A DNA stretch of 64,000 bases from Mizugakiibacter sp. (GCA_003233305.1 QILI01000006.1:1-64000), one strand, 5' to 3'. Positions 33,182 through 56,306 are shown, numbered from the stretch's first letter. A program made the numbers and translations. Notes: a model not told the origin generated them from the sequence alone.

Positions 33182-34547
33182 GGTGGAAGTGCCCGTCGAG
33201 CTGTTTGGGCTGGGCCGGTGGCGAGGCTTCGAGTTCGTCGATGACTTTACTAAGATCAGCCAGCAGCAGTTCAGACATATCGCGGGAAAAACCTTCACGA
33301 ACCACTATGCGCAGCACTGCAATATGTTCAGCCTCGGCGGGCATGGTGTAGGCCGGTACCTGCCAGCCGCGTACTCGTAGGCGCTCGGAAACGTCGTATA
33401 CCGAGTAGCGTGAGGCATCCTTGAGGCGAAAGGCAAATACCGGGATCGTGCTGCCATCACTGAGCAGCTCAAAGGGGCCGAGTTTGACGATGGCGGTGGC
33501 GAGTTCCATGGCGATATCACGCAGAGTTTGCATGATGCGGGTGTAGCCGCTGCGGCCCAGACGCAGAAAGTTGTAGTACTGGCCCACGATTTGATTGCCG
33601 GGACGGGAGAAATTGAGAGTAAAGGTGGGCATGTCGCCACCCAGGTAATTGACATGGAATACCAGGTCTTCGGGCAAGTGTTGTCGATCGCGCCATACGG
33701 CCCAGCCAACGCCGGGGTAAACCAGCCCGTACTTGTGACCGGAGGCATTGATGGAAACTACGTTGGGGAGGCGGAAATCCCAGCGTAGATCGGGATGAAT
33801 AAAAGGCGCGACGAAGCCACCGCTGGCCGCGTCGATGTGCAATGGTACGGCCAGGTCATGGTGCTGGTTATGCGCGACCACCGCATCGTGGATGGCTTCG
33901 ATGGGTTCAAACTCGCCAGTAAAAGTGGTGCCGAGAATGGCCACTACGCCAATGGTGTTCTCGTCGATACGCTTGACTACCTCCTCGGGGGTGATGACGT
34001 AACGATCCTCACCTATGGGGATATAACGCGGTTCGACCTCCCAGTAACGGCAGAACTTCTCCCATACCACCTGGACGTTGGTACCGAGGATAAGATTGGG
34101 CTTGGTAACGCTTTTACCTGCCGCTTCACGGCGGGCTTTCCAGCGCCATTTCAAGGCCATACCGGCGAGCATCACCGCTTCGCTGGAGCCGATGGCCGAC
34201 ACGCCCACCGCCTCACCGTCCTCGGGCGCGTGGAACAGGCGGGCGATCATATTTACACAGCGAGTCTCAATCTCCGCAGTCTGTGGGTACTCGTCTTTGT
34301 CGATCATGTTCTTGTCGAAGGTCTCGGCCATCAGTTGCTCGGCTTCGGGTTCCATCCAGGTGGTGACGAAGGTGGCCAGATTCAGACGGGCGTTACCGTC
34401 GAGCATAAGCTCGTCGTGGATCATCTGATAGGCCGTGCGTGGCGGCATTTCGGTATCCGGCAAGCGGTACTTAGGTACCGGTTCGGACATGGCGCGGGAG
34501 CCGAAAGTGGGGGCGAGTTCAGCGTGGGGTTGCAATTTCTTGACCAT
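33174..34547 (-). CDS. gadB: glutamate decarboxylase
   Basis: RLPDTEMPPRTAYQMIHDELMLDGNARLNLATFVTTWMEPEA, VSINASGHKYGLVYPGVGWAVWRD (PLP Lys), LNFSRPGNQIVGQYYNFLRLG. Confidence 0.96.
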   Translation of the reverse strand: MVKKLQPHAELAPTFGSRAMSEPVPKYRLPDTEMPPRTAYQMIHDELMLDGNARLNLATFVTTWMEPEAEQLMAETFDKNMIDKDEYPQTAEIETRCVNMIARLFHAPEDGEAVGVSAIGSSEAVMLAGMALKWRWKARREAAGKSVTKPNLILGTNVQVVWEKFCRYWEVEPRYIPIGEDRYVITPEEVVKRIDENTIGVVAILGTTFTGEFEPIEAIHDAVVAHNQHHDLAVPLHIDAASGGFVAPFIHPDLRWDFRLPNVVSINASGHKYGLVYPGVGWAVWRDRQHLPEDLVFHVNYLGGDMPTFTLNFSRPGNQIVGQYYNFLRLGRSGYTRIMQTLRDIAMELATAIVKLGPFELLSDGSTIPVFAFRLKDASRYSVYDVSERLRVRGWQVPAYTMPAEAEHIAVLRIVVREGFSRDMSELLLADLSKVIDELEASPPAQPKQLDGHFHHG

Positions 34548-34837
34548 GGTTCACTCCTGGGTAATGGAACAACGCTTCAATTCGAGAGGATGTGCATCAT
34601 GCACAGCACGAGAGACTGATGGGTCAGTGGTCCCAGCTTTCCATTAAGTTTTTTTTCGAGGTGATTTTTCATGTGGATGTTCTGCGCAGTTTGGGTTATC
34701 AATGGCAAACTCAGCAAGAGTACTTCACACCTTTCTAAACGGACTTCATCCCCACGCTCAGCACCCGTGGATACATCAAAAAGCCGCAGCAAGCGGTTTA
34801 AGTGCCCTGTGCCAAGGAGCGAGCTTCCGTGACCTAC

Positions 34838-34912
34838 CAGCTAGATAGGCGAGGAGTGAGTAAGGACGCAGCGCAGCAATCTGGTCGTGTAGTAGTTTAT
34901 CCTGCTACCCAG
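34838..34912 (+). repeat. interspersed spacer repeat, type 1 copy A
   Basis: CAGCTAGATAGGCGAGGAGTGAGTAAGGACGCAGCGCAGCAATCTGGTCGTGTAGTAGTTTAT...CCCAG; about 70% identical by hand alignment to 43748-43823. Overlaps the 3' end of the 34897 CDS. Confidence 0.5.
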
Positions 34913-36333
34913 GTACTGCGACGCCAGCGGTAGATCAGCATGGGGATGATCAGCATCAGTGCCAGAGTGGCGAGCATGGCCGGGGCGTATACCGATTCAG
35001 CAATACCGCCACCGGGCGGCAGTAGGCCGATGAGCAGGCAGGCCAGGGTGGTGACAAAGCCCATACCCGCAACCAACCACAGACCCCAGACCCGCCCACC
35101 GGGCACCCGATACGGCCGTGGGGTGTCGGGTTCGGTGTAGCGCAGACGGATGGCGGTAACGAACAGCATCAGGTACATCATGGAGTAGAGAATCACTGCG
35201 GCGGAGGTGAGCATCAAAAAGGCGGCATTGACCGAAGGCACCACCAGAAATACCATCGCTACCGCACTCATGGTGAGGGCTTGTACGATAAGCAGGTTAC
35301 GCGGTACCCCTCGGGCATTCACTTCCTGCAGTACTGGAGGCAGATTACCGGCTCGTCCCGCCGCCCACAGACCCTTGACCGGACCGACCACCCAGGTGCT
35401 GACCTGGCCCGCCGCACCCAGTGCGACCAGCACGGCGGCCACCGGTAACAATGCCCCCAGATGCCAGGTATCGAAGAGCTTTTGTAGGGCCTGCACACTG
35501 CCGGAAACGAGATTGAGCTGATCCATGGGTATGACCACGGCTACCGCCAGCCCACCCAGCAAGGTGATGACAAAACCGAGCAGGGCGGCGGCGAACACGG
35601 CAATGGGGTAGTTGTGACGGACGTTTTTCACCTCACGGGCGTGGCTGGCTGAGACTTCGATACCGACCACCCCAAAGATGAAGCTCAGAAACAACACCAG
35701 GTTTTGCTGCGGATGTTCCAGCGGCAGCCAGTTGGTTAGCGTGAGCGAGAGATCGAGATGGTTGGGCCGACCCTGGATGACGTACACCGCAGCCATACCG
35801 ATTAGCACCAGGCTTGGTAGCAGTACCCCGGCGCTCAGGCACACGCTGGAGATTAGCCCCGAGGCACGGGTACCCCGCAGGTTGGCGAAGGTGGCCGACC
35901 AGTACACGGCAAAAATCACGGCGATGATGAAATAGCGATTGGCGGCCAGATGAGGATCGAAGGCATAGGCCAGGCTTGCCGCCACATAGGACAGGATTGA
36001 GGTGATGCCGAACACGCTCTGTACCCACTGCAGCCATACGGCGGTGAATCCCCAGCGGGTGCCAAAGGCTTCCTCGACCCAATGAAATACCCCGTTCTTG
36101 GGCCAGGCGGTGGCTAGTTCTGCTGAGACTAGAGCGATGGGTACCAGAAAGGCGAACACCGTGACCAGGTTGAAGAACACCATCTGCAACCCGGTCGCAG
36201 CCATCATCGGCATGTTGCGCAGGGTCAGAAACAGCGCCGCAGTCATCAGCGTGAGCGTAACCACACCGAGGTGGCCACCAGCGGGAGAACGGGAGCTTGG
36301 TATCGTCTGCTGCAGGGGTGTGGGATGGTTCAT
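34897..36333 (-). CDS. GadC-like glutamate:GABA antiporter (APC family)
   Basis: LMTAALFLTLRNMPMMAATGLQMVFFNLVTVFAFLVPIALVSAELATAWPKNGVFHWVEEAFGTRWGF resembles GadC; adjacent to gadB. Confidence 0.85.
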   Translation of the reverse strand: MNHPTPLQQTIPSSRSPAGGHLGVVTLTLMTAALFLTLRNMPMMAATGLQMVFFNLVTVFAFLVPIALVSAELATAWPKNGVFHWVEEAFGTRWGFTAVWLQWVQSVFGITSILSYVAASLAYAFDPHLAANRYFIIAVIFAVYWSATFANLRGTRASGLISSVCLSAGVLLPSLVLIGMAAVYVIQGRPNHLDLSLTLTNWLPLEHPQQNLVLFLSFIFGVVGIEVSASHAREVKNVRHNYPIAVFAAALLGFVITLLGGLAVAVVIPMDQLNLVSGSVQALQKLFDTWHLGALLPVAAVLVALGAAGQVSTWVVGPVKGLWAAGRAGNLPPVLQEVNARGVPRNLLIVQALTMSAVAMVFLVVPSVNAAFLMLTSAAVILYSMMYLMLFVTAIRLRYTEPDTPRPYRVPGGRVWGLWLVAGMGFVTTLACLLIGLLPPGGGIAESVYAPAMLATLALMLIIPMLIYRWRRSTWVAG

Positions 36334-36543
36334 CGGTTTAGTTCTTCCATGCGAAGGGGATGGGGTCATTGCGGTGAGGGATGGGGGCCCAGGCCACGGT
36401 TTGTTGGCTAGGTAGTCCAGCAAGCATGGGCCGGATGAGCATGACCGCAATCCGGGGTGGCTTGGTAGCGATCAGGTATTCCCTGGATGCCACCTTGTTG
36501 CATCCAGACCGTGCGGTGGTTACCGCAGAATTGAGTAAGCGTA

Positions 36544-39543: not shown

Positions 39544-40902
39544 TCAGTCGCCCCCGATCCACTGCATAGCCGGGCGGTAGCGTGCCGGGATGCCATGTTC
39601 AGAAGCGGCCTGCAACCAGGGTTCGAGGGGCAGGTCTTGCGGGTCGAGTTGCGGCAGGATCTCCTGGCGGAAGCGCGCCACCAAAGCATCCTCACGCCAC
39701 TCCGAGCGCACCGTCAGCGAGGCCATCGCCGCCCGTGCTTCGGCACCTTCGCCTACGCACTCGAAGGGTTTGTGTTGATGATATTCCAGTAGCGCATCGA
39801 AACCGTCACTCTGGCTTTCATCGTCGAGCAGGTTGTGGCCGAAAATGGACAGCAGGCGTGGTTTAGGCAGGAAGGGGGCCAGGGCCAGGAATACGAAGTG
39901 GCATTTGGGGCACTGCCCGCACCAGCGATCTGCTGGCTTGGGGCTGAGAATACGAAAATTTCGGTTGCAGCTTGAAAAGTGATTGAAGTATTGCGGCAGG
40001 TGAGAAAAAGCCTGGGTAACGGCGATTTCAGAGTACGGGCGCAATAGTGAGAAATACTGCAGATCGGCAGCAACATGGCGCTGCAGATATGTAGAGAAAC
40101 CCTGCTCGAAGGCCCAGCTTTTGCTCCATTGGTGGTTGACCTTTTGACCTTCGTACTCCAGCGTGGCACTGGAAGCAGAACGTTCGTTGGCGAAAGCAAT
40201 CGCCTTGAAGTCATACAGTAAGGCGGCAAGTACCAGAATGGCTGAATTCACCGCCGTCACCGGGATATGTCCATTCCAGGCTCCCATCCGATTCATCTTG
40301 AACAGCTCCGGGGCCAGCTCCCGGGTGATGTTGAGCATGGGCAGGCCGGTCGTTTGTGCACAGGCGGCAATCAACGGGGAGGTGCCGACCCAGATGGCCG
40401 TAGCCTTCGCAGCCATCGATTTCAGGGCCTCGACTACTACCAGAGAATCCTTGCCACCACCCATCGGTACCAGCACCCGATCTGACAATTGGGCCGAAGC
40501 GGCATGCTCCGGTAGCTTTGCATCCGCTGGAAAATGGATGCGATCGCCCAGTTGCAGTTGGTTACGATAGGCAAACTCGGCCAGGCCGTGGCGATACAAG
40601 GTGTCCAGCAAAGCAGCACTGTCGGAGTCGATGGGCTCATCGTCGAAGCTGATTTCTGCTGGCACGCCGGCTTTGTAATAGCTGGTTCCAGCGACCCAGT
40701 GGAGTAACCGCAGGGCCTGGGTGAAGGCTTTGCGGCGCCCGGGCTGGGGTTCGGGCTGGCCGGGAAAATGAATCCGTTCGATGAGTTCAGGGCCAGCGTC
40801 GAAGGCATACACCAACTCAGCCGTGCCCTCGGCATAGCAGCAGCGTACCAAGCGGAAGCACTGGGCGGTGCGGGGATCACTCACGGATGTCGGGGTATTC
40901 AT
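39544..40902 (-). CDS. murL: UDP-MurNAc-L-Ala-L-Glu epimerase-like protein (MurL)
   Basis: 452 aa; VLVPMGGGKDSLVVVEALK pyrophosphatase-like loop, CNRNFRILSPKPADRWCGQCPKCHFVFLALAPFLP Cys motif; next to murD2 and lysC-lysA. Confidence 0.8.
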   Translation of the reverse strand: MNTPTSVSDPRTAQCFRLVRCCYAEGTAELVYAFDAGPELIERIHFPGQPEPQPGRRKAFTQALRLLHWVAGTSYYKAGVPAEISFDDEPIDSDSAALLDTLYRHGLAEFAYRNQLQLGDRIHFPADAKLPEHAASAQLSDRVLVPMGGGKDSLVVVEALKSMAAKATAIWVGTSPLIAACAQTTGLPMLNITRELAPELFKMNRMGAWNGHIPVTAVNSAILVLAALLYDFKAIAFANERSASSATLEYEGQKVNHQWSKSWAFEQGFSTYLQRHVAADLQYFSLLRPYSEIAVTQAFSHLPQYFNHFSSCNRNFRILSPKPADRWCGQCPKCHFVFLALAPFLPKPRLLSIFGHNLLDDESQSDGFDALLEYHQHKPFECVGEGAEARAAMASLTVRSEWREDALVARFRQEILPQLDPQDLPLEPWLQAASEHGIPARYRPAMQWIGGD

Positions 40903-43490
40903 TCGATGACCGTTTCGGTGGCCGGAGTACGCAGATTGTATTGCGAGGCCATGACCGCACCATAGGCACCTGTATTGGCGATAAGCAGCACGTCACCCTC
41001 CCTGCAGCGGGGCAGGCGGCAGTCCTTGCCAAGAATGTCGCCGCTTTCACAGATGGGGCCGACGACTTGATAAAGCGTATCGGCTTCGGCATGCAGCCGG
41101 CTGAGATTGATGATGGGGTGCTGTGCACCGTACAGGGCGGGCCGGATCAGGCTGTTCATGCCGGTTTCGACACCGAGATACTGTAGGGTCTTTTTCGACT
41201 TGATCTGGGTAACGCGGGCCAGCAGTACTCCTGCTTCCGCGACCAGAAAACGGCCCGGTTCCATCCATAACTCATATTGCGGATAGACCCGCTGCACCTC
41301 AGCCAGTCCTTCGGCAAGAGCATCGAGGTCGAGGGGGGCTTCGTCAGGGTATTGCGGGATACCGAGTCCGCCACCGATATCCAGTGCTGCGACTGTGCCC
41401 ATGCGTTCGGCCAGACCGGCGAGCTCGGCATAGACGCGTACCCAGTGGTGTGGATCCAGCACGCCTGAACCCAGATGCGCATGCAGCAGGGTCACCCGTG
41501 CCCCAATCCGTTTGGCTAGGTCCAGGAATGCATCCAGATCATCGAGCGCAAGTCCGAATTTACTGAAAACGCCGCCGGTACGTACCTTCTCATGATGACC
41601 GAGGCCGCGTCCCAGATCGATGCGTAGGCCGATGTCGCGATCACGGAACCATAGGCCCCAGTGTTGCAGTGGATGCAGACCGTCCAGGGTGATTAAAGTG
41701 TTGGGGTCCTGGGTGGCCAGGCGAAAATCCTCCTGAGAGGCAAAATTGGCTGAAAACAGTCGGCTGGTCTTAGCCGTGGCACCCCGCGCTCGCTGCAATT
41801 CACCGGGTGACACACACTCGAGTCCGAAGCCTTCCTCGGCCAAGACCTGGAGAAGACGCTGCTGAGGGTTGGCTTTGATCGCGTAGTACCAGCGGTTTAC
41901 GGCACCGATATGTCGCAAGGCGCGAGCCCGGGCGCGCACCGTGGGCAAGTGATAGACGTAGCAGGGGCCCTGCTCGGCAAGATCCAGCAATCGTTGCCGT
42001 TGAGCATGCCACCACGGTACGCTGGGGGCCGCTTTATCCTGTCCGTACAGACTGCGCCAGCTGGCTCCAAAGCATAGCGGGTCATCAGCACGCAATACGC
42101 CGGTACGCAACAGCAGAGAGTGCAGACGGGGCACCAACTCATCGGCCAGACCTTCATCGACCACAAAGGTGAGGTTGAGATTGTTGGATGACTGGGTGAT
42201 CAGGTGTACATGGTGTTCGCCAAACTCGGCTAACAGCGGTGAAAGCCGGTGCAGCATGCCGCGCATGCCACGACCGACCAGGGTAATGGCCGCACAGGGG
42301 GCAATGACCTTGACCCGACAGATGGTGCTCAGATCATCGGCGAGTCGGGCCACTGCATCGGAATCAAGTAGATTTTCGGTGGGATCCAGGGATACGGTCA
42401 CATTGGTTTCAGCCGAGCCGACCAGATCTACCGAAAGACCGTGTCGTTTGAAGTAGGCAAATACATCGGCAAGGAAGCCCACCTCTTGCCACATGCCGAC
42501 GGATTCCATCGACACCAGGGTGATTCCCCGGCGTGCGCTGATACCTTTTACACTGGGTGCGGTTGAGGCCTTGGTCGGGCCGATAAGCGTTCCGGGAAGT
42601 TGCGGATTGGCGGTGTCGTGGATACGTAGCGGCACCCTGGAACGACGCAGGGGACTCAGGCAATGGGGGTGCAAAACCTTGGCCCCGGTAGCAACAATTT
42701 CCTGGGCCTCTTCGTAGTCGAGTTGCGTCAGCAATCTCGCATCCGGCACTTGGTGCGGGTTGGCACTGAATATACCGGCGACATCGGTCCATATTTCCAC
42801 CCGCTCGGCGGCAAGTTGGGCCCCAAAATAGGCGGCAGAAGTATCCGATCCACCCCGTCCCAGCAACACGGTTTGTCCGGAACGATCCCGGGCAATGAAA
42901 CCCTGGGTAATGAACAGTTCGCCGCGGGCTGCCAGGGCCTCGCTCCAGGCCTGGTCAGGTCTGGCCCGGACACTGGCTGAAAGTAGCCGGGTACGCTCAT
43001 TGCGGTGGGGTAGTTCTGTGGCCAGCAGTGCCAGCCGTGCGTCCAGCCACTGGGCGTGCAGTCCTTGGGCGTTCAGATATGCGGCGCCCAGGGTGCTGGA
43101 CAGCAGCTCACCCTGGGCCAGTAATTCAGCACGCCAGGCGAGTTCACTACTGCTGTGCGATGGACAGGAGCATAGAGAGACCAGGGCATCGAGTTGCGTG
43201 CGCAGTGCCTTGGGCCTATGCAGCCCTAGTTTCTCAGCGAGATGTTGATGCTGAGCAACGATAAGCATAGCTTCACTTGGTCGCTGTGTTGCCGAGGCCT
43301 TGTACAGGGCATGCAGTGCATCGGTGATGCCGGCAAGAGCGGATACCACAATGAGTACACGGGCCCCTTCCTGACGGCGGGTGGTAGCCAGTGCGGCGAT
43401 CTGTTGCCAGCGTGAAACGGTGCTGACACTGCTGCCGCCGAATTTGAGTACGATCCAGGGGGCATCCACAGCAAGGGAAGGCGGGTTCAT
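40899..43490 (-). CDS. bifunctional aspartate kinase / diaminopimelate decarboxylase
   Basis: N-terminal WIVLKFGGSSVSTVSRW and LLGRGGSDTSAAYFGAQL (aspartokinase); C-terminal YYAIKANPQQRLLQVLAEEGFGLECVSPGEL and EPGRFLVAEAGVLLARV (DAP decarboxylase). Confidence 0.96.
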   Translation of the reverse strand: MNPPSLAVDAPWIVLKFGGSSVSTVSRWQQIAALATTRRQEGARVLIVVSALAGITDALHALYKASATQRPSEAMLIVAQHQHLAEKLGLHRPKALRTQLDALVSLCSCPSHSSSELAWRAELLAQGELLSSTLGAAYLNAQGLHAQWLDARLALLATELPHRNERTRLLSASVRARPDQAWSEALAARGELFITQGFIARDRSGQTVLLGRGGSDTSAAYFGAQLAAERVEIWTDVAGIFSANPHQVPDARLLTQLDYEEAQEIVATGAKVLHPHCLSPLRRSRVPLRIHDTANPQLPGTLIGPTKASTAPSVKGISARRGITLVSMESVGMWQEVGFLADVFAYFKRHGLSVDLVGSAETNVTVSLDPTENLLDSDAVARLADDLSTICRVKVIAPCAAITLVGRGMRGMLHRLSPLLAEFGEHHVHLITQSSNNLNLTFVVDEGLADELVPRLHSLLLRTGVLRADDPLCFGASWRSLYGQDKAAPSVPWWHAQRQRLLDLAEQGPCYVYHLPTVRARARALRHIGAVNRWYYAIKANPQQRLLQVLAEEGFGLECVSPGELQRARGATAKTSRLFSANFASQEDFRLATQDPNTLITLDGLHPLQHWGLWFRDRDIGLRIDLGRGLGHHEKVRTGGVFSKFGLALDDLDAFLDLAKRIGARVTLLHAHLGSGVLDPHHWVRVYAELAGLAERMGTVAALDIGGGLGIPQYPDEAPLDLDALAEGLAEVQRVYPQYELWMEPGRFLVAEAGVLLARVTQIKSKKTLQYLGVETGMNSLIRPALYGAQHPIINLSRLHAEADTLYQVVGPICESGDILGKDCRLPRCREGDVLLIANTGAYGAVMASQYNLRTPATETVIE

Positions 43491-43747
43491 GGGTGACGCA
43501 GGTGGTGGCAACGGTATGAGTGTTGCGTGCACTGCAACAAAACGCAATGGTCATGGCGGCCTGATCCTGCCTGCTTAGTACCCCGGTCTCTCAATACTTC
43601 AAGAGTGGGTGCGAAAATCCACGTAATTTCAATAACGCAGACAGATCACGTAGTGTGATCCGGTTCAGTACGGATATAGTTGGGTACCTCCAACCATAGT
43701 GAGCGGTTTGAGTGCTCAGTACCCCAGAGCGAATCTCCGAAACATAT

Positions 43748-44099: not shown

Positions 44100-45221
44100 T
44101 CAGTCTGTCTGCCTGACAATCCACGCAGCGATTTCCGGCCACGTATCTTTCAGAGTACGTGCCCCCATGAACAGGCCCACGTGACCACCGGGTACTATGC
44201 GCTTATGGATCTTTTTCCGGGGTGTGCTCATCAGGATCTCAGCTGCGAAAACCTGTTCGTGTGGGGTGATATCGTCTTTTTCACCCGCCAGCAGGTATAG
44301 CGGGCAGGTAATTGCTTTCAGATTCAGTGTATGTCCCAGCGCAATGTATTTACCTTTGGCCAGTAAATTGCGTTTGAATAACTGATCGATAACCTGCAGA
44401 TACCAGCGCCCGGGCAAATCCAGCGGATTCTCATACCAACTGTCGAAGGCCTCAGCCTTAGACAGCCACACCGGATCATTAATGTGTTCGTAGAGGTCGA
44501 TGTGATCCTGTACGTAATGCTGCTTGGGATGCATGTTTTTCCAGCCGGCCAGCATATATTTGCCCAACATCAGCCCATCTCCACTGGCTACCAGTTCCTC
44601 GTAGAAACTCATTGGACTATCTTTCACCATCTTTAGCAGCGGACCACTGCCGGCATACGTGTCGATCGGTGATCCGGCCAGAACCAGGCTGGCTACTTTA
44701 TCGGGAAAGCGTGCGGCCAACATTGCCGCCATCCAGCCACCCTGGCACAGTCCGACCAGATTGACGCGGCCGCCCAGATCGTCCACACAGGTCAGTAATT
44801 CGGCCAGATACTGATCCACCTCAAGATCCCTCATATCCATGCTGGCCGAGTGCCAGTCGGTGAGAAAGAGGTGCCCGACGCCGTTTTCCTGCAACGTCTG
44901 CATCAGGCTTTGACCCTGATGGTAATCGGCAATCATCGAGGTATGCCCGGCGTAGGGTGCGTCGACCAGGGTGGGAATGCCTTTAGCAGCCAATCCTGAG
45001 TAGTCGCACAGATCCAGCGTGCGTAGTTTCAATCGCACACTGTGTGGAGTAGCCAGTTGCGGCTTGAGTCCATCGTGTAACAGGATCTCTTCCTCAACGA
45101 ACTTGACGTTTCGTGCAGCAAGCTCCAGACCTTGCTCGGCCATGTCAGCGGCGAGTTGCATAGGCCAGAAAAATGGTACGTTGATATTGGACTGGATAAC
45201 AGTAGGTTGGGTTGCGTTCAT
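44100..45221 (-). CDS. PhaC-like alpha/beta hydrolase (PHA synthase/depolymerase superfamily, Cys nucleophile)
   Basis: VNLVGLCQGGWMAAMLAARFPDKV (GxCxGG), LLAGEKDDITPHEQVF, VPGGHVGLFMGARTLKDTWPEIAAWI. Confidence 0.75.
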   Translation of the reverse strand: MNATQPTVIQSNINVPFFWPMQLAADMAEQGLELAARNVKFVEEEILLHDGLKPQLATPHSVRLKLRTLDLCDYSGLAAKGIPTLVDAPYAGHTSMIADYHQGQSLMQTLQENGVGHLFLTDWHSASMDMRDLEVDQYLAELLTCVDDLGGRVNLVGLCQGGWMAAMLAARFPDKVASLVLAGSPIDTYAGSGPLLKMVKDSPMSFYEELVASGDGLMLGKYMLAGWKNMHPKQHYVQDHIDLYEHINDPVWLSKAEAFDSWYENPLDLPGRWYLQVIDQLFKRNLLAKGKYIALGHTLNLKAITCPLYLLAGEKDDITPHEQVFAAEILMSTPRKKIHKRIVPGGHVGLFMGARTLKDTWPEIAAWIVRQTD

Positions 45222-45357
45222 GAGCGAACTCCTTCTCGGATAGTTTGGAAATGGTGAGCTGTCAAGTACATGATTGCTTCCGCAAAATATAGTCATGATT
45301 TTTGACAGCGGGTGCGCAAGGCCCCCGGGTCCTTGGTGGCGGTGCCATTCACCGACA

Positions 45358-46545
45358 TCAGCCGGTCTGCAACAGCCGCAGTGTATGTCGGGCGATCATC
45401 TGTTCTTCATCGGTTGGAATAACTCGTAAGGCTATTGCTGAATCTGTAGCGGCGATGTCACTGGCGTTAGCAGCATTGGCTGTGGCGTCGATCCGGGCGT
45501 TGAATATGGCCAGGCGGCGGACGATGGCAGCACGCACAGCACTGGCACGCTCGCCGATGCCAGCGGTAAAAACCAACCCGTCGATGCCCCCCATACTTGT
45601 TGCCATCGCGGCAACACTCTGGGCGACTCGATGTACAAAGACGTCCACAGCTAGACGGGCCTCGGGTGTGTCCACTTCCAGCAGCTCACGCATGTCTCCA
45701 GTGTTGCCTGACAGCCCTTTCAATCCACATTCATGGTAAAGAAGGTGGCTGATAGCCGCGGCATCCTGCCCGCACTCCTGCATCAGGTACAACACGATAC
45801 CTGGGTCGAGATTACCCGGACGCGTCCCCATCACCAGTCCTTCCAACGCTGAAAAGCCCATGGTGCTGTCCACACTACGACCGTTGTGCAGTGCGCAGAG
45901 CGAGGCACCATTACCGAGGTGAGCGATTACCAGTCTTCCAGAGGCTAGGTCCGGGGCCATCTTGGGCAGACACGAGGCAATATACTCGTAAGACAGACCG
46001 TGGAATCCGTAACGTCGTACACCGGACCGTATCAAGTATTGCGGTAAGGCATATATATCCATCTCGGGACGGTGCCCATAATGAAAACCGGTGTCGAAAC
46101 AGGCTATCTGGGGCAGATCCGGGTTCTTTTTCAGTAATGAGCGGATCGGTGCCAGATTGAACGGCTGATGCAATGGTGCCAGTGGTGTCAGGGATTCGAG
46201 TTTTGCCAATACTTCGGCATCGACCCGGATCGGCTCATGAAACATTGTGCCACCATGAACCACCCGGTGCCCCACCGCGTCAGGCGCACTATCAAGATGG
46301 GTAGCCACCCAGTCGTTGACGACACTCTCGGCAGTTGCCATATTCGCAACTGTCCCGGGCTCAAACGTACGTTCGAGCAGTACTTTGCCATGGCCATCAT
46401 GTACGTGTAAATGAGGCGTATCCCCGACCTCAGCAAGTTCTCCGCGCTGTAGAAGGGTCGGATCCCCAAGGCCGTCAGCGGCTTCATTGTAGGCAGCAAA
46501 CTTGATGCTCGAGCTGCCGACATTTAGAACCAGAATCATGGTCAT
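45358..46545 (-). CDS. ackA: acetate/butyrate kinase family protein
   Basis: MILVLNVGSSSIKFAAY, VGHRVVHGGTMF, CFDTGFHYGHRPEMDIYALP, VIAHLGNGASLCAL. Confidence 0.96.
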   Translation of the reverse strand: MTMILVLNVGSSSIKFAAYNEAADGLGDPTLLQRGELAEVGDTPHLHVHDGHGKVLLERTFEPGTVANMATAESVVNDWVATHLDSAPDAVGHRVVHGGTMFHEPIRVDAEVLAKLESLTPLAPLHQPFNLAPIRSLLKKNPDLPQIACFDTGFHYGHRPEMDIYALPQYLIRSGVRRYGFHGLSYEYIASCLPKMAPDLASGRLVIAHLGNGASLCALHNGRSVDSTMGFSALEGLVMGTRPGNLDPGIVLYLMQECGQDAAAISHLLYHECGLKGLSGNTGDMRELLEVDTPEARLAVDVFVHRVAQSVAAMATSMGGIDGLVFTAGIGERASAVRAAIVRRLAIFNARIDATANAANASDIAATDSAIALRVIPTDEEQMIARHTLRLLQTG

Positions 46546-47963
46546 AGCGATTCCCTGGCAGGGAGCCAGGATGCGTGAGCAATGTCTAGAAGCACGGCCA
46601 GTGCGCAGGAAGCCATGCGGGCGTCGGCCAGATCTGCGCGACTGGTCAGCACGACCGGAACCCTGGTTCCGAGGACGATACCTGCGACCTTGGCCTCCCC
46701 CAAGTACTCAAGCTGCTTGGCTAACATATTACCGGCTTCGAGGTCGGGTGCGACAAGAATATCGGCGTGCCCCGCCACTGGCGAGACAATACCCTTGGCC
46801 TTCGCCGCTGCGACCGAAACGGCGTTGTCGAAAGCCAGCGGCCCGTCGAGCAGTGCCCCGATAATCTGGCCGCGATCGGCCATCTTGCACAATGCCGCAG
46901 CATCCAGGGTTGAGGGTATTTTTGGATTGACTGTTTCTACCGCGGACAGAATAGCGACCTTGGGCTGATCCATACCCAATGCGTGGGCCAGTTCAATCGC
47001 GTTCTGGACGATGTCGTGCTTGGCGGCAAGGTCCGGCGTTACATTGACGGCTGCATCCGTGACCAGTTGCAGACTCGGTTGGCCAACGATATCCATCACG
47101 AATACGTGACTAATGCGCCGTGCGGTACGCAGACCGACCTGGGTATCAACTACGGCATGCATTAATTCATCAGTGTGCAGTGAGCCTTTCATTACCGCCT
47201 GTACCTCACCGGCACGGGCCATAGCCACGGCCCTTTCTGCGGCCGCCTGGCTATGTTCGGTCGAAACCACAGGGTAGGCTGAAAGATCGATATGGGCGAC
47301 GGCTGCGGCAGTACGAATCTTCGCCTCCGGCCCTACGAAGGTCGGCGCAATGAGACCTGCCTGCGCCGCATCGACTGCGCCACCCAGAGAAATGGCATCA
47401 ACCGCATGTACCACCGCCATCTTCAGTGGCTCGTGCCCGTTCAGAGCTTGTTGCGCCTGAGTGATGAGATCACGTAATTTTGCTCCAGGGTCACGTAGTT
47501 CGAGCTTGGGTAGATGCATACGCGGACGGCAAATTTTCTCGGTAGGAACCAGAACCACCGCTTCACCTTCAACCGCAGTTTCGTTGCGTTGGTTAACGAC
47601 CACGCATTGTAGGGTTGCCCGCCTGAAGGCAACCTCGATTCCGGTTACGGTCACTGTGACCCGCACCGTATCACCGACCAGAATGGGCTTGAGAAATTTT
47701 AGATTCTGAGTGAGGTATACCGTACCCGGCCCAGGAAGCTGGGTACCCAGCACATTTGAAACCAAAGCGGCGCTCCACATGCCATGTGCCACCACTCTAT
47801 GAAAGGGGTCGCCGGCCGCGAATTCCGGATCGACATGCGACGGGTTTACGTCGCCAGATGCCAATGCAAAGATCTGTGCACCTTTCTGGGTGAAAGTCCG
47901 GGTGAGGTTGGCGCAATCGCCGATCTTTAGTTCGTTCAGCGGATGGTTTTCAATCAGGGTCAT
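46542..47963 (-). CDS. fused MaoC-like enoyl-CoA hydratase / phosphate acyl(acetyl)transferase
   Basis: N-terminal IFALASGDVNPSHVDPEFAAGDPFHRVVAHGMWSAAL (MaoC/PhaJ); C-terminal PTA_PTB domain (EAGNMLAKQLEYLGEAKVAGIVLGTRVPVVLTSRAD); ATGA overlap with ackA. Confidence 0.93.
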   Translation of the reverse strand: MTLIENHPLNELKIGDCANLTRTFTQKGAQIFALASGDVNPSHVDPEFAAGDPFHRVVAHGMWSAALVSNVLGTQLPGPGTVYLTQNLKFLKPILVGDTVRVTVTVTGIEVAFRRATLQCVVVNQRNETAVEGEAVVLVPTEKICRPRMHLPKLELRDPGAKLRDLITQAQQALNGHEPLKMAVVHAVDAISLGGAVDAAQAGLIAPTFVGPEAKIRTAAAVAHIDLSAYPVVSTEHSQAAAERAVAMARAGEVQAVMKGSLHTDELMHAVVDTQVGLRTARRISHVFVMDIVGQPSLQLVTDAAVNVTPDLAAKHDIVQNAIELAHALGMDQPKVAILSAVETVNPKIPSTLDAAALCKMADRGQIIGALLDGPLAFDNAVSVAAAKAKGIVSPVAGHADILVAPDLEAGNMLAKQLEYLGEAKVAGIVLGTRVPVVLTSRADLADARMASCALAVLLDIAHASWLPARESL

Positions 47964-48378
47964 TGTGGGTTGCCATTTTCTGTGCAAAAGGCGGTACCGG
48001 ATATCCGTAGTGGTGTGTTGGAGTAGTGCAAAAATACATGGATTCCCGGTACCTTCAGCAGTAGTTTTTCTGGGAATGCCCATATACGGTCAGCCACTTG
48101 CTCCAGCGTTGCCACCACAATAGCTGTCTAGCTGGGGCCTGCCGTACCTATCAGTCGAGAGTGGGAAATGTCTATTCCTGTTCGGGGGCGAACCCGTGTC
48201 GGTACCGTGAGTGAGGGGGGTGTCATCATGCGCGCAACGGTCGAATGAATGACATGATCGAGCGTTCTGTAGGAGTGGGTATCCATAGGTCAGCAAGTCC
48301 CGGAAATCATGTGGCCGCTTGCAGCGATAAATGGCTGTTCGGGTTGGTTAATAGTAGTTGCAGTGACAGGTGCCTTAG

Positions 48379-48392
48379 TTGACATATATCAA
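48379..48392. promoter_or_regulatory. FNR/Anr-like box upstream of the phasin gene
   Basis: TTGACATATATCAA, matches TTGAY-N4-ATCAA; followed by GG. Confidence 0.6.
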
Positions 48393-48548
48393 GGAATTAT
48401 GCTTGACGAAAGCGCACTCTGTAAGCGTTCAGGCAGCATGACCTGCTAGCAGTACGGTTAGTGGTATTTTCGTTATGGCCGTACCAGGACGATAGGTGCG
48501 CTGCCTTTATGTCGCATGACGTTATTGTCCATGTAGAAGGAGATTGTT

Positions 48549-49130
48549 ATGTTTTCCGAAACCCAGATTGAAGAATTGCAAAAACTGCACACTGCACACA
48601 TTGCCAACACTTTTCTGTTTGCCGGAAAGATCCTTGATCAGCAGCGCCGTATTACTGATGCCCAGACCGATGCACTGCACGAAGCGCTGGTGCAGATGGC
48701 CAAGACCAACGCCTTTGATCCACAGCAGGATCCAACGGCCATGGTTAAGAATGCGGTGACCACATTCTCTTCCGGTCTAAGTGGTCATAACAGCCGCGTT
48801 AACCACCTTGTTGGCAGTATGGCCGATGCCTATATGTCGATTATGAACATGGCTCTGGAGTACGGTAACGATACCTTTACGCACTTTCAGCATCTGACGA
48901 AGACCTCGGATGCTCCTGCTTCTGACAACGGCGTGCCGGTAGAATCATGGAAATCCTGGTCGGACATGTTCTCCAAGGCCGTCAAGGAGAGTTCCGATCT
49001 GTTTGCCGACAACATGCGGACGCTAATGGCACGGAGTATTCCGGTACCCGGATCAGCGGAAAAAACAAGTGATAAAAAGTCTGTAAAAACCGATTCTGAC
49101 ACCACTTCGAAACCTGCGAGTAAGGCATGA
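48549..49130 (+). CDS. phasin-family (PHA granule-associated) protein
   Basis: 193 aa, helical, polar; MFSETQIEELQKLHTAHIANTFLFAGKILDQQRRITDAQTDALHEALVQM; Lys/Ser-rich tail; AGAAGGAG RBS. Confidence 0.85.
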   Translation: MFSETQIEELQKLHTAHIANTFLFAGKILDQQRRITDAQTDALHEALVQMAKTNAFDPQQDPTAMVKNAVTTFSSGLSGHNSRVNHLVGSMADAYMSIMNMALEYGNDTFTHFQHLTKTSDAPASDNGVPVESWKSWSDMFSKAVKESSDLFADNMRTLMARSIPVPGSAEKTSDKKSVKTDSDTTSKPASKA

Positions 49131-49200
49131 GAAATACCTGATTCATAGGGTTTGACTACCTGCCCCGGCAGATTGATGTCCGGGCCTCCGGCAAAGGAGT

Positions 49201-49647
49201 ATGGCTATGAGCGTTTTTAAGAAAATCCTTGTTCCTGTGGACGCGAGTGAATGCGCAACGCATGCTGTAGAAAGAGCGCTCGATCTTGCACTGGATCAAC
49301 AGGCGGCGATTCATTTTGTACACGTGCTTAACATTCACCCCATAGTTATCGCCTACCCAACGGTTATCGATGCCATGAATGCGGAAGCTGAGGTACTGCT
49401 TGACCGGACTGCAAGCCGGGCCGGGGAAAAGAAGGTTCTCACTACCAAGGCCCTGTTGATTACGGATCCCAAGCACCCCAGGATTGTCGACCAGATTCTG
49501 CTTGAAGCAACGAATGTCGGGGCGGACCTGATTATCGCGGGAACGCACGGCAAAGGATCCTTTGAAACCTGGTTTCTTGGTGGTGTGGCCGAGGCCCTTA
49601 CGCGCCGAAGTTCTCTGCCGGTAATGTTGGTTCCATCCGGGCGCTGA
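49201..49647 (+). CDS. universal stress protein (UspA family)
   Basis: KKILVPVDASECATHAVERALDLA, ADLIIAGTHGKGSFETWFLGGVAEALTRRSSLPVMLVPS. Confidence 0.93.
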   Translation: MAMSVFKKILVPVDASECATHAVERALDLALDQQAAIHFVHVLNIHPIVIAYPTVIDAMNAEAEVLLDRTASRAGEKKVLTTKALLITDPKHPRIVDQILLEATNVGADLIIAGTHGKGSFETWFLGGVAEALTRRSSLPVMLVPSGR

Positions 49648-49837
49648 TAGCGCAGCACCGGTTTGGCCTATCCGCAGGTCCGAATGTATCCGTCCCCCTT
49701 AGGCGGTCACGTAGTCGGGTCGCCCCCGTGGAGTCACTGTCCGTCACCCCGCACGGCCACACGATATATACAACCGGTGGGTGGGGTAGTGACTTCATGT
49801 ACTCGCCCTGATGTTTTCTTACCCAAGGAATTTCAGC

Positions 49838-50563
49838 ATGAAACGACTCGCTCTCGTAACCGGAGGCACTCGGGGTATCGGTGCCGCCATCGCTGTGCAC
49901 CTTCAGCAGCATAATTACTGTGTTGCGGTGACCTATCATGGTAACGACGCCAATGCCATGGCATTCAACAAAGCCCATGGCATTCCCGTTTACAAATGGG
50001 ATGTTGTCGATTTCGATGCCTGTGCGGCAGGTACAAAACAGGTCGAAGCCGATGCCGGCCAGGCCCTGGATATCTTGGTCAACAATGCTGGCATCACCCG
50101 CGACAGTACCTTGCATAGGATGTCACCCCACGACTGGCGTACGGTACTCGAAGATGATTTGTTTGCCTGCTTCAATATGTGTCGTGCTGTCATTGTCGGA
50201 ATGCGTGAGCGTACCTGGGGCCGGATCGTAAATATTTCTTCGATCAACGCCCAGAAAGGCCAGTGCGGGCAGACCAACTACTCGGCAGCCAAGGCCGGTG
50301 TGATTGGGTTTACCAAGGCCCTGGCGTTGGAATCTGCGCGCAAGGGCATCACCGTCAATACCGTTGCACCGGGCTACACCGATACCGATATGGTGGCCAA
50401 GGTCAAGCCCGAGGTACTGGCCGGCATTATTCAACAGATCCCGGTTGGCCGTCTTGCTCACCCTAATGAGATTGCTCATGCGGTAACCTTTCTTGTTCAT
50501 GACGACTCATCGTTCATCACTGGTTCGACCTTATCGGTAAACGGAGGCCAGTATCTGGCATGA
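49838..50563 (+). CDS. phaB: acetoacetyl-CoA reductase
   Basis: MKRLALVTGGTRGIGAAIAVHLQQ, ILVNNAGITRDSTLHRMS, NISSINAQKGQCGQTNYSAAKAGVIGFTKALALE. Confidence 0.92.
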   Translation: MKRLALVTGGTRGIGAAIAVHLQQHNYCVAVTYHGNDANAMAFNKAHGIPVYKWDVVDFDACAAGTKQVEADAGQALDILVNNAGITRDSTLHRMSPHDWRTVLEDDLFACFNMCRAVIVGMRERTWGRIVNISSINAQKGQCGQTNYSAAKAGVIGFTKALALESARKGITVNTVAPGYTDTDMVAKVKPEVLAGIIQQIPVGRLAHPNEIAHAVTFLVHDDSSFITGSTLSVNGGQYLA

Positions 50564-50744
50564 ACATGAAGGATTCTGATTCGTGCCGTGCCGATGTCCC
50601 GGTCCTTCAAACGGGGTCCATGCTGACCACGCGGTTGCTCTATTCCATGCGGCGAGGTGATCTCAAGTGCGGCGGGGTTACCTTGTGTATTGGCAGCGGG
50701 CAAGGTACTGCCCCGGCACTGGAAAGTTTTTGAAGGGGGTCTCC

Positions 50745-51572
50745 GTGAATAGTCCCTCCATATCCACGGAAGAAAATACATTAGCGAATTCCGATCCTAG
50801 GCCACATACTCTTGATCTGCGTGGCCAACGAGGTCTGATAATCGGTATCGCCAACGATCACAGTATTGCCTGGGGTTGCGCTCGCAGTATGCGGGCCCTG
50901 GGTGCTGAGCTCGCGGTGACTTACCTCAACGAAAAAGCCAAGGCTTGGGTGCAACCGTTGGCCGGGCAGTTGCAGGCATCTCTTTTGCTGCCTTGTGATG
51001 TGCGTCAACCCGGACAACTCGATGCCGTCTTCGAAACCATTCGGAATCACTGGGGCAGACTGGACTTCGCTTTGCATGCAGTGGCGTATGCGCCCAAGAA
51101 AGACTTGCAAGCCCCGCTACTGGATACCTCCGCCAGCGGATTCTCCATGGCCATGGACGTGTCGTGTCATTCATTCGTACGTATGGCCCGACTTGCTGCG
51201 CCCCTGATGGAACACGGTGGCACCCTACTCGCCACCAGTTACTACGGTGCTGAAAAAGTGATCGGACACTACAATCTTATGGGCCCGGTCAAAGCCGCAT
51301 TGGAAGCCGTCGTGAGGCAACTGGCTGTGGAACTTGGCCCCCAGCACATTCGTGTTCACGCCCTGTCACCCGGTCCGGTCCGCACTCGCGCGGCCAGCGG
51401 TATTGCTGCCTTCGACGAGTTGCTGGACCAGGCCGCTCGGCGTTCTCCCGAGCATACCCTCGTCAGCATCGAGGAAGTTGGTGCCGTTGCCGCTGGACTG
51501 GTCAGTGACCTGGCCCGGGGAATGACCGGTAACGTAGTTTTCGTTGATGCCGGCTACCACATCATGGGCTGA
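50745..51572 (+). CDS. FabI-type enoyl-ACP reductase (probable GTG start)
   Basis: LRGQRGLIIGIANDHSIAWGCARSMRALGAELAVTYLNEKAK, LLATSYYGAEKVIGHYNLMGPVKAALEAVVRQLAVELGPQHIRVHALSPGPVRTRAASGI. Confidence 0.88.
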   Translation: MNSPSISTEENTLANSDPRPHTLDLRGQRGLIIGIANDHSIAWGCARSMRALGAELAVTYLNEKAKAWVQPLAGQLQASLLLPCDVRQPGQLDAVFETIRNHWGRLDFALHAVAYAPKKDLQAPLLDTSASGFSMAMDVSCHSFVRMARLAAPLMEHGGTLLATSYYGAEKVIGHYNLMGPVKAALEAVVRQLAVELGPQHIRVHALSPGPVRTRAASGIAAFDELLDQAARRSPEHTLVSIEEVGAVAAGLVSDLARGMTGNVVFVDAGYHIMG

Positions 51573-51612: not shown

Positions 51613-51626
51613 TTGACTTGGATCAA
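51613..51626. promoter_or_regulatory. FNR/Anr-like box upstream of the small Cys4 protein gene
   Basis: TTGACTTGGATCAA, matches TTGAY-N4-ATCAA; followed by GG as in the first box. Confidence 0.6.
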
Positions 51627-51734
51627 GGTAATCACCCCTCCCTGGGGCGGACAATCAAAACGATGGTCTCGTGAAGAGGCATACTCGCCACGAAGACCAA
51701 TCGCTTCAGGTAACTTCTACGATGGAGACCTTCA

Positions 51735-51938
51735 ATGAGTAAACAACAGCATCCCCAGCATCCACAAGAAGCCGTTATGTGTGAGTCCTGCGCCAGGGAT
51801 GGCCAGCAGGTGGAAATGGTCAAACAGGATCAAATCGAGAATTCGTTTCTTGACCAGGACGGGGAGACCGCCCCGATCAATCTGCGCACCTATCGTTGCC
51901 CGGCTTGTGAGCATACGCAGGTATTCCAGGTCGATTGA
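51735..51938 (+). CDS. small Cys4 (zinc-ribbon-like) protein of unknown function
   Basis: 67 aa, CESC...CPAC pair of CxxC motifs; GGAGA upstream; FNR-like box 109 nt upstream. Confidence 0.55.
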   Translation: MSKQQHPQHPQEAVMCESCARDGQQVEMVKQDQIENSFLDQDGETAPINLRTYRCPACEHTQVFQVD

Positions 51939-52418
51939 ACCTGATCGGCCTAGCCGGCTCCGGTAAGCGTTCTGGTGGGTATTCCGCTATGGCAATTCAG
52001 CTCGTGGCGGGGAAACCGGACTGGATATCCATGCAGTACTCGAATGGACACCGGTATGGAAATTCCGGATATATAGCTCACTAGGCGCCTACTCTGAACC
52101 CGACCATAAATAGACTGCAAGATGAATCGTGTTCCTAGGTCCTGCCACCGAAATACGTAAGTATCCTGTAGACGCATGCGCTCACAGTGACCGTATTGCA
52201 GTGATCTTCAAGGGTCGCAAAGATGAGGGCACGGACGACGGCATCAAACACCACCCAACCTCTCGCAATGCGAAACCCGTGTGGTTACGTTGCACACTGT
52301 TCTAACTACCATCGCTCAAGCTGGAACTTCCAGCGCTACATACTGCATTTACCGCTGATTGAGGAAATGGTGTTGTTTAACCGCAGTCGGTATCACCTAT
52401 TCAAATAAGGAATTAGCA

Positions 52419-55031
52419 ATGGACGAGAACATCGATATAAGCCAAGTAGAAAAACTTGTCACTGAGGATGTTTTCAAGCAACTCGGAAGCAGTGATAAGG
52501 GGCTAAGTACCACCGAGATTAAACAGCGCCTCGAGCGTTTCGGACCGAATGCCTTGGATGAGAAAGAAACCCCGCTATGGCGTCGGTTAGTAACTTATTT
52601 CTGGGGGCCGATTCCCTGGATGATCGAGGTTGCCGCCATTCTCTCCGCAGCCAACAGCGATTGGAAGAGTTTTAGCGTGATCTTCGCCATGCTAGTGATC
52701 AACGGGGGCATCGGATTCTGGGAAGAAAAGGGTGCCAGTGATGCACTCAAGGCACTCAAAAACCAACTGGCACTTAAGGCGCGTGCCTTGCGCGACGGTC
52801 AGTGGGGTGAGGTCGATGCCGCCGAATTGGTGCCGGGCGATGTGGTACGGGTGCGTCTTGGTGATATTTTACCCGCTGACGTCAAACTGTTCGATGGCGA
52901 TTATCTTGCCGTAGACCAGTCTGCACTCACCGGTGAATCTTTGCCGGTGAACAAGAAGGCTGGCGATGTGGCTTATTCCGGAACCATCGCAAAACAGGGC
53001 GAAATGGCCGGTCTTGTCTATGCCACGGGGGGGCGGACCTTTTTCGGACGCACTGCCAGCCTGGTGCAGCGGGCTGCCCCGGTCTCCCACTTTCAGAAAG
53101 CCGTACTTTCAATCGGTAATTTTCTGATATTTCTTGCGATTGCGCTATCGATTCTCCTCATCGTAGTCGAGCTGATTCGTGGGCTGTCATTCCTCGAATT
53201 GATTGCCTTTGTACTGGTGGTGGTGGTTGCCTCAATTCCGGTGGCGATGCCAGCTGTACTGTCTGTCAGTATGGCGCTGGGGGCGCTTTCGCTGTCAAAG
53301 CTGAAGGCGATTGTGTCCAAACTAACAGCCATTGAGGAAATGGCCGGTGTAGACATTCTCTGCTCTGACAAAACCGGCACGTTGACGCAGAACAAGCTTA
53401 CCCTTGGTGATACCGCGCTGTTCTCCGCCAGGGATGTTCAGGAAGTCATCCTGGCTGCGTCACTTGCATCGAAGGCCGAGGATGCTGATGCCATCGATAC
53501 TGCCGTACTCAACGGATTGCAAAATAAGGATGAACAACTCAAAGGTTTCCGGCAAAACAAATTTGTGCCCTTCGATCCGGTCTCTAAACGTACCGAGGCA
53601 ATCATTCAGAGTGCGGAGGGTAAGACTTTTCGTGTCACCAAGGGGGCCCCGCAAGTTATTATGGGCCTGGCCAAACTTGTGGGTGATGACCAGAACAAGG
53701 CTGACAAGGTGGTTATGGATGCTGCGGCCAAGGGTTTCCGTACCTTGGGTGTAGCGCGTTCTGAGGATGATGGCGCGCATTGGACGTTTCTGGGCATTCT
53801 GCCCTTGTTCGATCCCCCCCGCGTCGACTCGAAAGCCACCATTATGGAGGCTCAAGCGCACGGTATCGAAGTTAAGATGGTCACCGGTGACCACCAGGCC
53901 ATTGCCAGCGAGATTGCCGGGCAGCTCAACCTCGGTACACACATCGTACCAGTGGATCAGAGCCTGTCCAAGGTGGCCGAAGGCGGGGTGGTATCCCCGG
54001 CGTTGGGTGATAGCATCGAACGAGCCGATGGCTTTGCCCAAGTCTATCCCGAGCACAAGTACGCTATCGTCAAGGTACTTCAGGATCGCGGCCATATCGT
54101 TGCCATGACCGGCGATGGTGTCAACGACGCCCCCGCCCTCAAACAGGCTGATGTCGGTATCGCGGTGTCCGGTGCCACTGATGCCGCCCGTAGTGCTGCA
54201 GCCCTGATTCTTACGGCTCCGGGATTGAACGTTATTGTTCGCGCAGTCGAGGAAGCCCGGCGTATCTTCGAACGCATGATGAGTTACACCGTGTATCGCA
54301 TTGCCATGACGCTCGATATCCTGTTTTTTGTGGTGGTGGCTATGCTGCTGTTCAATAGCTATCCACTGACTGCCATCATGGTTGTGCTGCTCTCACTACT
54401 CGATGATATCCCTATCATGACTATCGCCTGGGACAATACGACGGTACAGAAAAAGCCGGTGCACTGGGAGATGTCACGAGTGCTCGGGCTGTCGTCGGTA
54501 ATGGGGGCGCTGGCTTTCGGTGGGACCTTCATACTCTATCTACTCGTGCGCTTTCTGTATCACATGCCCGTTGGCCAGGTACAAACGGTGATGTTTTTGC
54601 AGCTCATTGCCGGCGGCCATCTGATGCTGTTCCTGACCCGGGTGCGTGGTCCTTTCTGGCGCCCACCCTATCCTGCCTTGCCGCTGCTAGCAGCCATTCT
54701 CATCACTCAGATTATTGGTGTCGCCATGGCTGGCTTCGGTTGGTTGATGCCGGCCCTTTCATGGTCGGTTGTCGGGCTGGTGTGGGTTTACAACATCATT
54801 TGGATGCTTGTGGCGGACTTTACTAAGCTCGGTGTGCATCGCCTCATGGATAGCCAAGCAGTACATCAAAGCCGTTTTCTCCGTACTGTAAACGCCTCGC
54901 TGCATCCAGCTATAACCCAGTTTCAGCATGAAGAGGCTGCCGCGCACCGTGATATCAGACGGGCCTTTGCGATCTTTAAGCACGACGTACATCAGACCGG
55001 AGGTCATCCCCGGCGTCCAAGGTCCGGATAA
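52419..55031 (+). CDS. P-type (P3A) plasma-membrane proton-efflux ATPase
   Basis: DKTGTLTQNKLTLGD, LTGESLPVNKKAGD, MTGDGVNDAPALKQADVGIAVSGATDAARSAAALILTAPGL. Confidence 0.95.
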   Translation: MDENIDISQVEKLVTEDVFKQLGSSDKGLSTTEIKQRLERFGPNALDEKETPLWRRLVTYFWGPIPWMIEVAAILSAANSDWKSFSVIFAMLVINGGIGFWEEKGASDALKALKNQLALKARALRDGQWGEVDAAELVPGDVVRVRLGDILPADVKLFDGDYLAVDQSALTGESLPVNKKAGDVAYSGTIAKQGEMAGLVYATGGRTFFGRTASLVQRAAPVSHFQKAVLSIGNFLIFLAIALSILLIVVELIRGLSFLELIAFVLVVVVASIPVAMPAVLSVSMALGALSLSKLKAIVSKLTAIEEMAGVDILCSDKTGTLTQNKLTLGDTALFSARDVQEVILAASLASKAEDADAIDTAVLNGLQNKDEQLKGFRQNKFVPFDPVSKRTEAIIQSAEGKTFRVTKGAPQVIMGLAKLVGDDQNKADKVVMDAAAKGFRTLGVARSEDDGAHWTFLGILPLFDPPRVDSKATIMEAQAHGIEVKMVTGDHQAIASEIAGQLNLGTHIVPVDQSLSKVAEGGVVSPALGDSIERADGFAQVYPEHKYAIVKVLQDRGHIVAMTGDGVNDAPALKQADVGIAVSGATDAARSAAALILTAPGLNVIVRAVEEARRIFERMMSYTVYRIAMTLDILFFVVVAMLLFNSYPLTAIMVVLLSLLDDIPIMTIAWDNTTVQKKPVHWEMSRVLGLSSVMGALAFGGTFILYLLVRFLYHMPVGQVQTVMFLQLIAGGHLMLFLTRVRGPFWRPPYPALPLLAAILITQIIGVAMAGFGWLMPALSWSVVGLVWVYNIIWMLVADFTKLGVHRLMDSQAVHQSRFLRTVNASLHPAITQFQHEEAAAHRDIRRAFAIFKHDVHQTGGHPRRPRSG

Positions 55032-55541: not shown

Positions 55542-56306
55542 ATGAAACGCTATCCACGCCTTGATGCGCATGACCATCTCACCACCCGCTTATGCATAAA
55601 AATGCTCCCGGAAGCATTCCTGCCCACCTTGCGACAACATGTTGCCGAATGTGTCAGTGCATCTATTCAGGTCAATCGGGGTGAATACCTGGCCCGTTGT
55701 GGGCAGCCCTTCCTGCATATTTTTCTAATTGTGCAAGGTTCTTTTAAGCTGGTGCAACCGGGCAATATCGATCACGACCAGATTGTTGGTATCCGCTGGC
55801 CCCGACACTTGATTGGTATGGACGGATTTGCTGGGCGCGTGTATGCCACCGACCTGATAGCCCTGGAGTCTTCTACCGTATACGAGTTTCCAGTTCTGGC
55901 GATCGAGCGGCTTGCCAACAGTGATCCCGACCTGCTTGATGAACTGTTGACCTTTGTATCTGAGGACTTGGCACAGGCTGAGCATCTTCAATACATGCTC
56001 GGAAGTATGAATGCCACCCAGAAAATGGGCTTCTTCTTCCTGTTTATGGATGATCACCTGGGCCATATTCGTGATGAAGACTCGCATTTTGTGTTACCTA
56101 TGACCCGGGAGGAAATCGGTAGCTTTGTGGGTCTGAGTATGGAAACGGTCAGCCGCCTGATCTCACACCTGCACAAACGGGGCGCTATCGATATTCACCG
56201 GCAGACTGTGCGTATCCTACAACGTGATCTACTTGAAGGCTGGCAATCCGGAACCCACACTCGCGATTACGATGGGGACATGACTGATGTTATGTCAAGC
56301 AGTTAG
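55542..56306 (+). CDS. Crp/Fnr-family transcriptional regulator
   Basis: cNMP-like N-domain and HTH LPMTREEIGSFVGLSMETVSRLISHLHKRGAIDIHRQTVRILQ. The four-Cys N-terminal pattern of E. coli FNR is not evident. Confidence 0.92.
   Translation: MKRYPRLDAHDHLTTRLCIKMLPEAFLPTLRQHVAECVSASIQVNRGEYLARCGQPFLHIFLIVQGSFKLVQPGNIDHDQIVGIRWPRHLIGMDGFAGRVYATDLIALESSTVYEFPVLAIERLANSDPDLLDELLTFVSEDLAQAEHLQYMLGSMNATQKMGFFFLFMDDHLGHIRDEDSHFVLPMTREEIGSFVGLSMETVSRLISHLHKRGAIDIHRQTVRILQRDLLEGWQSGTHTRDYDGDMTDVMSSS

Follow-up and report, generated by a model that had tools for sequence, protein, structure and literature searches.

What do the seven genes at positions 44,100-51,572 of a 64-kb stretch of Mizugakiibacter DNA (hereafter the window, from an assembly of 2.66 Mb that is 99% complete) do for the cell? 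An earlier note on this DNA described them as a PhaC-like Cys hydrolase, ackA, a gene fusing a PhaJ-like MaoC hydratase to a Pta/Ptb phosphotransacylase, a phasin, a universal stress protein (USP), phaB and a FabI-type enoyl reductase, and proposed that together they form a butyrate-producing redox sink. All seven open reading frames (ORFs) were recovered at or near their proposed positions, and their families were assigned with Pfam and NCBIfam. We consider it probable that the cluster is an FNR/ANR-type low-oxygen carbon and energy module, in which acyl-CoA linked to the polyhydroxybutyrate (PHB) pool would be converted to acyl phosphate and ATP. By analogy, the best reading of the module is that it resembles the lxa locus of Burkholderia cenocepacia.

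FNR/ANR-type sites were found at promoters, as in an lxa-type low-oxygen locus. The strict pattern, TTGA[TC]-N4-[AG]TCAA, occurs exactly twice in the 64 kb, both times within the cluster, where the background across fusion loci is 0.026 per kb. One box, TTGACATATATCAA (48379-48392, + strand), sits in the promoter region from which the fusion gene and the phasin-like gene diverge; the other, TTGACTTGGATCAA (51613-51626, + strand), falls just after fabI and upstream of a small ORF and a gene for a plasma-membrane-type H+ P-type ATPase (52359-55031, + strand; TIGR01647, 952 bits). We compared 13 genomes of the genus, and such boxes are common to congeners: they lie between divergent genes in G003, G011 and G012, the phaC/phasin promoters of G002 and G003 also carry one, and in G004 and G008 a strict box is found upstream of the usp gene that precedes the cluster. 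G009 has no strict box near its fusion gene, and its boxes are near its H+-ATPase and hydrolase genes. We infer that FNR binds these sites. No PhoB box with fewer than four mismatches was found in the window. With two mismatches allowed, the FNR box matches at 41 places where 22 were expected, spread through genes; this shows a lack of specificity, and these matches were left unused. A short unannotated frame with CxxC-like motifs (51690-51940, + strand) lies 3' of the box at 51613.

There is precedent for such control: in Herbaspirillum seropedicae, ChIP-seq and RNA-seq show that Fnr1 directly controls a dksA-phaC2-fabI-Hsero_2407 operon (PMC5934665). Hsero_2407 may itself be a MaoC-Pta fusion. 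Three observations weigh against low-oxygen control. The Crp/Fnr-family protein encoded nearby (55542-56306, + strand; PF13545, PF00325 and PF00027), a candidate regulator of the boxes, scores 82 bits against the Fnr model, below its cut-off of 228. Most alphaproteobacterial loci are without a strict FNR box near the fusion gene. Finally, the ORF-pta-ack-fabI operon of S. meliloti is, as cited in PMC8231600, induced by phosphate starvation via PhoB, and low oxygen is therefore not a universal signal for genes of this kind.

The co-occurrence of these genes in other genomes, the lack of which would have told against the earlier proposal, was borne out. At least 596 fusion loci are listed in proteobacteria, and neighbourhoods were counted in 80 named loci, the fetched flanks of some of which end at contig ends; ackA accompanies the fusion in 74 of them, phaC in 30, fabI in 24 and phaB in 9. 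In nearly all, ackA lies within 500 bp of the fusion gene and on the same strand. When all ORFs were clustered independently, the real families that recurred most were those of the fusion, ackA, phaC and fabI (clusters 1, 3, 4 and 6 appear to be shadow ORFs of these genes). Approached from the FabI side, with the PRK07533 cut-off as the criterion, a survey of 151 Burkholderiales genomes found FabI of this type in five, and all five adjoin pta-ackA; in three of these five operons, the Pta is without a MaoC domain. Together, the two sets of linkage data define a conserved core of FabI, AckA and Pta, often with a PhaC-superfamily hydrolase, of which MaoC is a frequent yet dispensable part. The three unfused pta-ackA-fabI operons (L190, L191 and L192) have a long PhaC-superfamily protein in front, and in both of those scanned, L190 and L191, this first gene encodes a DUF3141 protein. 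To our knowledge, no function has been described for DUF3141. Near the pta-ackA set, 14 of the 80 fusion loci share a large ABC-transporter-like ORF (cluster 9), and HlyD- and permease-like ORFs (clusters 14 and 26) appear in some.

The fusion gene itself (46542-48083, - strand) is not new. Its product belongs to the curated family PRK08190, which is named in many public records, scoring 665.8 bits against a cut-off of 282 and covering model positions 3-458 of 467, both domains included (PF01575, 77 bits; PF01515, 141 bits). Its closest named relatives among the matches listed are from metagenome-assembled genomes, one betaproteobacterial (75%) and one of Thiomonas (72%), which makes a source near Thiomonas in the Burkholderiales likely. 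The listed start is probably too early, and the true start is probably near 47963, with conserved sequence beginning around residue 41. The MaoC domain keeps catalytic Asp78 and His83 in the motif SGDVNPSH, and its nearest matches are (R)-specific enoyl-CoA hydratases. Among 94 fusions surveyed for the MaoC active site, nine have lost the catalytic Asp and/or His, two of them adjoining fabI, which suggests that hydratase activity was lost while the fusion was retained. These losses are at L042, L043, L044, L010, L065, L084, L096, L108 and L126, all with the Pta domain intact.

The Pta domain is Ptb-like in sequence. Its best structure match is the phosphate butyryltransferase 7vg9 (221 bits over 284 residues), followed by Lmo1369 and then a branched-chain phosphotransacylase, and with genuine Pta structures the score drops to about 50 bits; it scores 294 bits with TIGR02706 (phosphate butyryltransferase) and 66 with TIGR00651 (Pta). 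Since 294 bits falls below the TIGR02706 equivalog cut-off of 410.5, sequence does not settle acetyl- versus butyryl-specificity. The literature searched contained no enzyme assay of the fused protein. Elsewhere in the genome, PTA_PTB matches just one protein, over the C-terminal part of its 762 residues; its sequence is malic-enzyme-like. The adjoining AckA (45358-46545, - strand; PF00871, 338 bits) lies above the cut-off of the acetate/propionate kinase family (TIGR00016, 340 bits against 293) and scores 36 bits with the butyrate kinase model, for which the cut-off is 289.

Had the FabI of the cluster (50667-51572, + strand) been the sole essential enoyl-ACP reductase of the cell, a part in this module would have been hard to argue. 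This is not so. A second FabI is encoded on contig C43, is 42% identical to the one in the window, and scores better with other FabI models than with PRK07533. The window FabI exceeds the PRK07533 cut-off (430 against 337 bits), and the FabIs linked to fusions form a clade apart from the housekeeping FabIs of the genus with support of 100/100; by its place in this tree, the window enzyme is assigned to the fusion-linked type, distinct from housekeeping FabI. As with the fusion, its listed start is probably too early, the conserved part spanning about 50799-51572 from around residue 48. Within the genus, the fusion is present in seven of the 13 genomes, and an intact cluster FabI is found in the window genome alone. 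A broken fabI remnant (51% identity, with internal stops) lies near the cluster of G011 (L038:17756-17959).

On the PHB side of the cluster, acetoacetyl-CoA reductase PhaB (49811-50563, + strand) was assigned above its curated cut-off (TIGR01829, 324.6 against 302 bits), and the USP (49201-49647, + strand) matches PF00582 at 90 bits. The gene described as a phasin (48549-49130, + strand) is present, but no Pfam or NCBIfam phasin profile matches it, and the family assignment is by gene context: we call it phasin-like since, in congeners, its homologues are arranged divergently with class I phaC. Its predicted structure is helical and of low confidence (predicted local distance difference test score, pLDDT, 49), no entry in the PDB matched with E below 0.001, and a plasmid search for the gene gave no match. 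The gene is found in the window genome and in G002, G003, G011 and G012, and in no others of the genus; these four also hold class I phaC, divergent to it. In the window, phaC is absent and the fusion gene takes its place as the divergent neighbour of the phasin-like gene; loss of phaC from this position would be the simplest explanation. A candidate remnant between these two genes, a 23-residue match with E of 0.005 in a 701-base target, was unconvincing.

The window genome as a whole has no class I PhaC. It does encode a class III PHA synthase pair, PhaE-PhaC, on contig C1, both above cut-off, and PHB synthesis is therefore possible without the class I enzyme. The absence of a beta-ketothiolase, noted earlier, holds for the cluster but not for the genome, where contigs C38, C41 and C44 carry three full-length genes of the thiolase family.

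The first gene of the cluster (44100-45296, - strand) encodes a member of the PhaC/PhaZ/DUF3141 superfamily of alpha/beta hydrolases, with Cys184, Asp341 and His372 conserved, as read from invariant alignment columns, and a PHB_depo_C match of 58.5 bits. The superfamily and the Cys thus agree with the earlier description as a PhaC-like Cys hydrolase; curated cut-offs do not extend this to either named enzyme. Class I PHA synthase was rejected, with TIGR01838 scoring 67 bits against 623 and no PhaC_N domain found in Pfam and NCBIfam profile searches, and so was PhaZ (TIGR01849, 87 bits against 301). Its true start is probably near 45221, later than listed, with conserved sequence from around residue 26, and its predicted structure was unusable (mean pLDDT 40). 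Orthologues in four congeners are 71-82% identical. The gene is present in five of seven genomes with the fusion and in none of six without it (Fisher p = 0.02, indicative only, as the genomes are related and partly incomplete).

How does this cluster relate to systems already described? Clusters in which the fusion is found with phaC, ackA, fabI and phaB are known from Burkholderia (PMC8231600) and from Cobetia and Halomonas, where the fusion is termed 'bi-pta' (PMC8686332); phaA is unreported in all of these clusters. The window resembles these in the fusion and its partner genes; it differs in having no class I phaC, in carrying a shorter PhaC-like hydrolase and a phasin-like gene, and in its FNR boxes and USP, which mark it as a low-oxygen type. 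The S. meliloti operon (Summers 1999, as related in PMC8231600) shares the grouping of pta, ackA and fabI. Its layout is matched by L190-L192, and DUF3141, encoded by the first ORF in L190 and L191, is the superfamily of the window hydrolase; the S. meliloti operon is described as under PhoB, whereas the window has two FNR-type boxes. In B. cenocepacia, hypoxia induces the lxa locus, whose genes encode USPs, a phosphate acetyl/butyryl transferase and PhbB (PMC6127331) and which helps the cells to persist under anoxia (PMC9104464). Like the window, it brings together USPs, an acetoacetyl-CoA reductase and a phosphate acetyl/butyryl transferase; it is much larger, and its transferase, at 35 kDa, leaves no room for a MaoC domain.

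In the low-oxygen module that we favour, PhaB, the phasin-like protein and a PHA synthase would handle the (R)-3-hydroxybutyryl-CoA/PHB pool, and the MaoC part of the fusion would interconvert hydroxyacyl-CoA and enoyl-CoA. The dedicated FabI may be able to act as a reductase of enoyl thioesters. AckA and the Ptb-like Pta portion of the fusion would carry acyl-CoA through acyl phosphate to ATP and acid. Both the substrates and this direction of flow are what we infer from the predicted enzymes. The USP would belong to the same stress set, possibly joined by the H+-ATPase, which in relatives is again found next to the fusion or to the hydrolase. The earlier note had run these steps into one electron sink that uses up two NAD(P)H, in which acetoacetyl-CoA is converted to (R)-3-hydroxybutyryl-CoA by PhaB, to crotonyl-CoA by MaoC, to butyryl-CoA by FabI, to butyryl phosphate by Pta, and to butyrate with ATP by AckA. 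A candidate gene for each step is in the cluster, and the Ptb-like Pta domain, the intact MaoC domain nearest to (R)-specific hydratases, and a non-housekeeping FabI all fit. If right, the chain would perform the same enoyl-CoA-to-butyrate chemistry as the clostridial Ptb-Buk pathway, with a different hydroxyacyl stereochemistry, FabI for Bcd-Etf and AckA for Buk. What stands of this proposal is the co-occurrence and a FabI that is not the only one of the cell; the full chain fares less well, given the MaoC-less operons, the decay of MaoC even beside fabI, the rarity of PhaB near the fusion, the restriction of intact cluster FabI to one of the 13 congeners, and the shortfall of both Pta and AckA against butyrate-specific cut-offs. 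The chain would be chemically coherent and is compatible with the predicted families; the data fit an acetate/propionate role as well, and we think the chain unlikely.

Flow might instead run in reverse, with AckA and Pta making acetyl- or propionyl-CoA for PHB, MaoC supplying (R)-hydroxyacyl-CoA from beta-oxidation, and FabI serving as an auxiliary lipid enzyme. Such a reading comes near the one offered in PMC8231600 and, as regards propionate and AckA-Pta, the one in PMC8686332; it draws on the reversibility of the reactions, on the family of AckA, and on the frequency of phaC beside the fusion. The window cluster is nonetheless without class I phaC, and its FNR boxes and USP suggest energy stress over growth on acetate, leaving assimilation possible but doubtful. 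That the genes are unrelated and adjoin by chance is very improbable: PhaB, the phasin-like gene and the USP are tied to the fusion mainly inside the genus, yet the fusion-AckA and FabI-Pta-AckA links are kept across alpha-, beta- and gammaproteobacteria, and the FNR boxes recur in congeners.

Elsewhere in the window, an ORF of 882 aa (40899-43547, - strand) resembles, by eye, an aspartate kinase fused with a diaminopimelate decarboxylase, and a pyridoxal-dependent decarboxylase lies between two amino acid permeases (31811-36450, - strand) in an acid-resistance-like layout.

Altogether, this analysis adds to the known fusion clusters the FNR boxes common to congeners, a separate FabI clade with linkage to pta-ackA in five of five cases, the decay of MaoC in some relatives, and a class III synthase elsewhere in the genome. 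A bolder proposal is that aerobic proteobacteria possess an FNR-controlled drain from (R)-3-hydroxybutyryl-CoA/PHB to butyrate and substrate-level ATP, catalysed by a MaoC-Ptb fusion together with a FabI-type reductase that has been adapted to crotonyl-CoA; we put this forward as speculative and rather unlikely. Should the module indeed yield ATP from a storage polymer without oxygen, this would account for the anoxic survival of PHB-bearing aerobes, and would also explain the linkage to pta-ackA of FabI copies that have no part in fatty acid synthesis.

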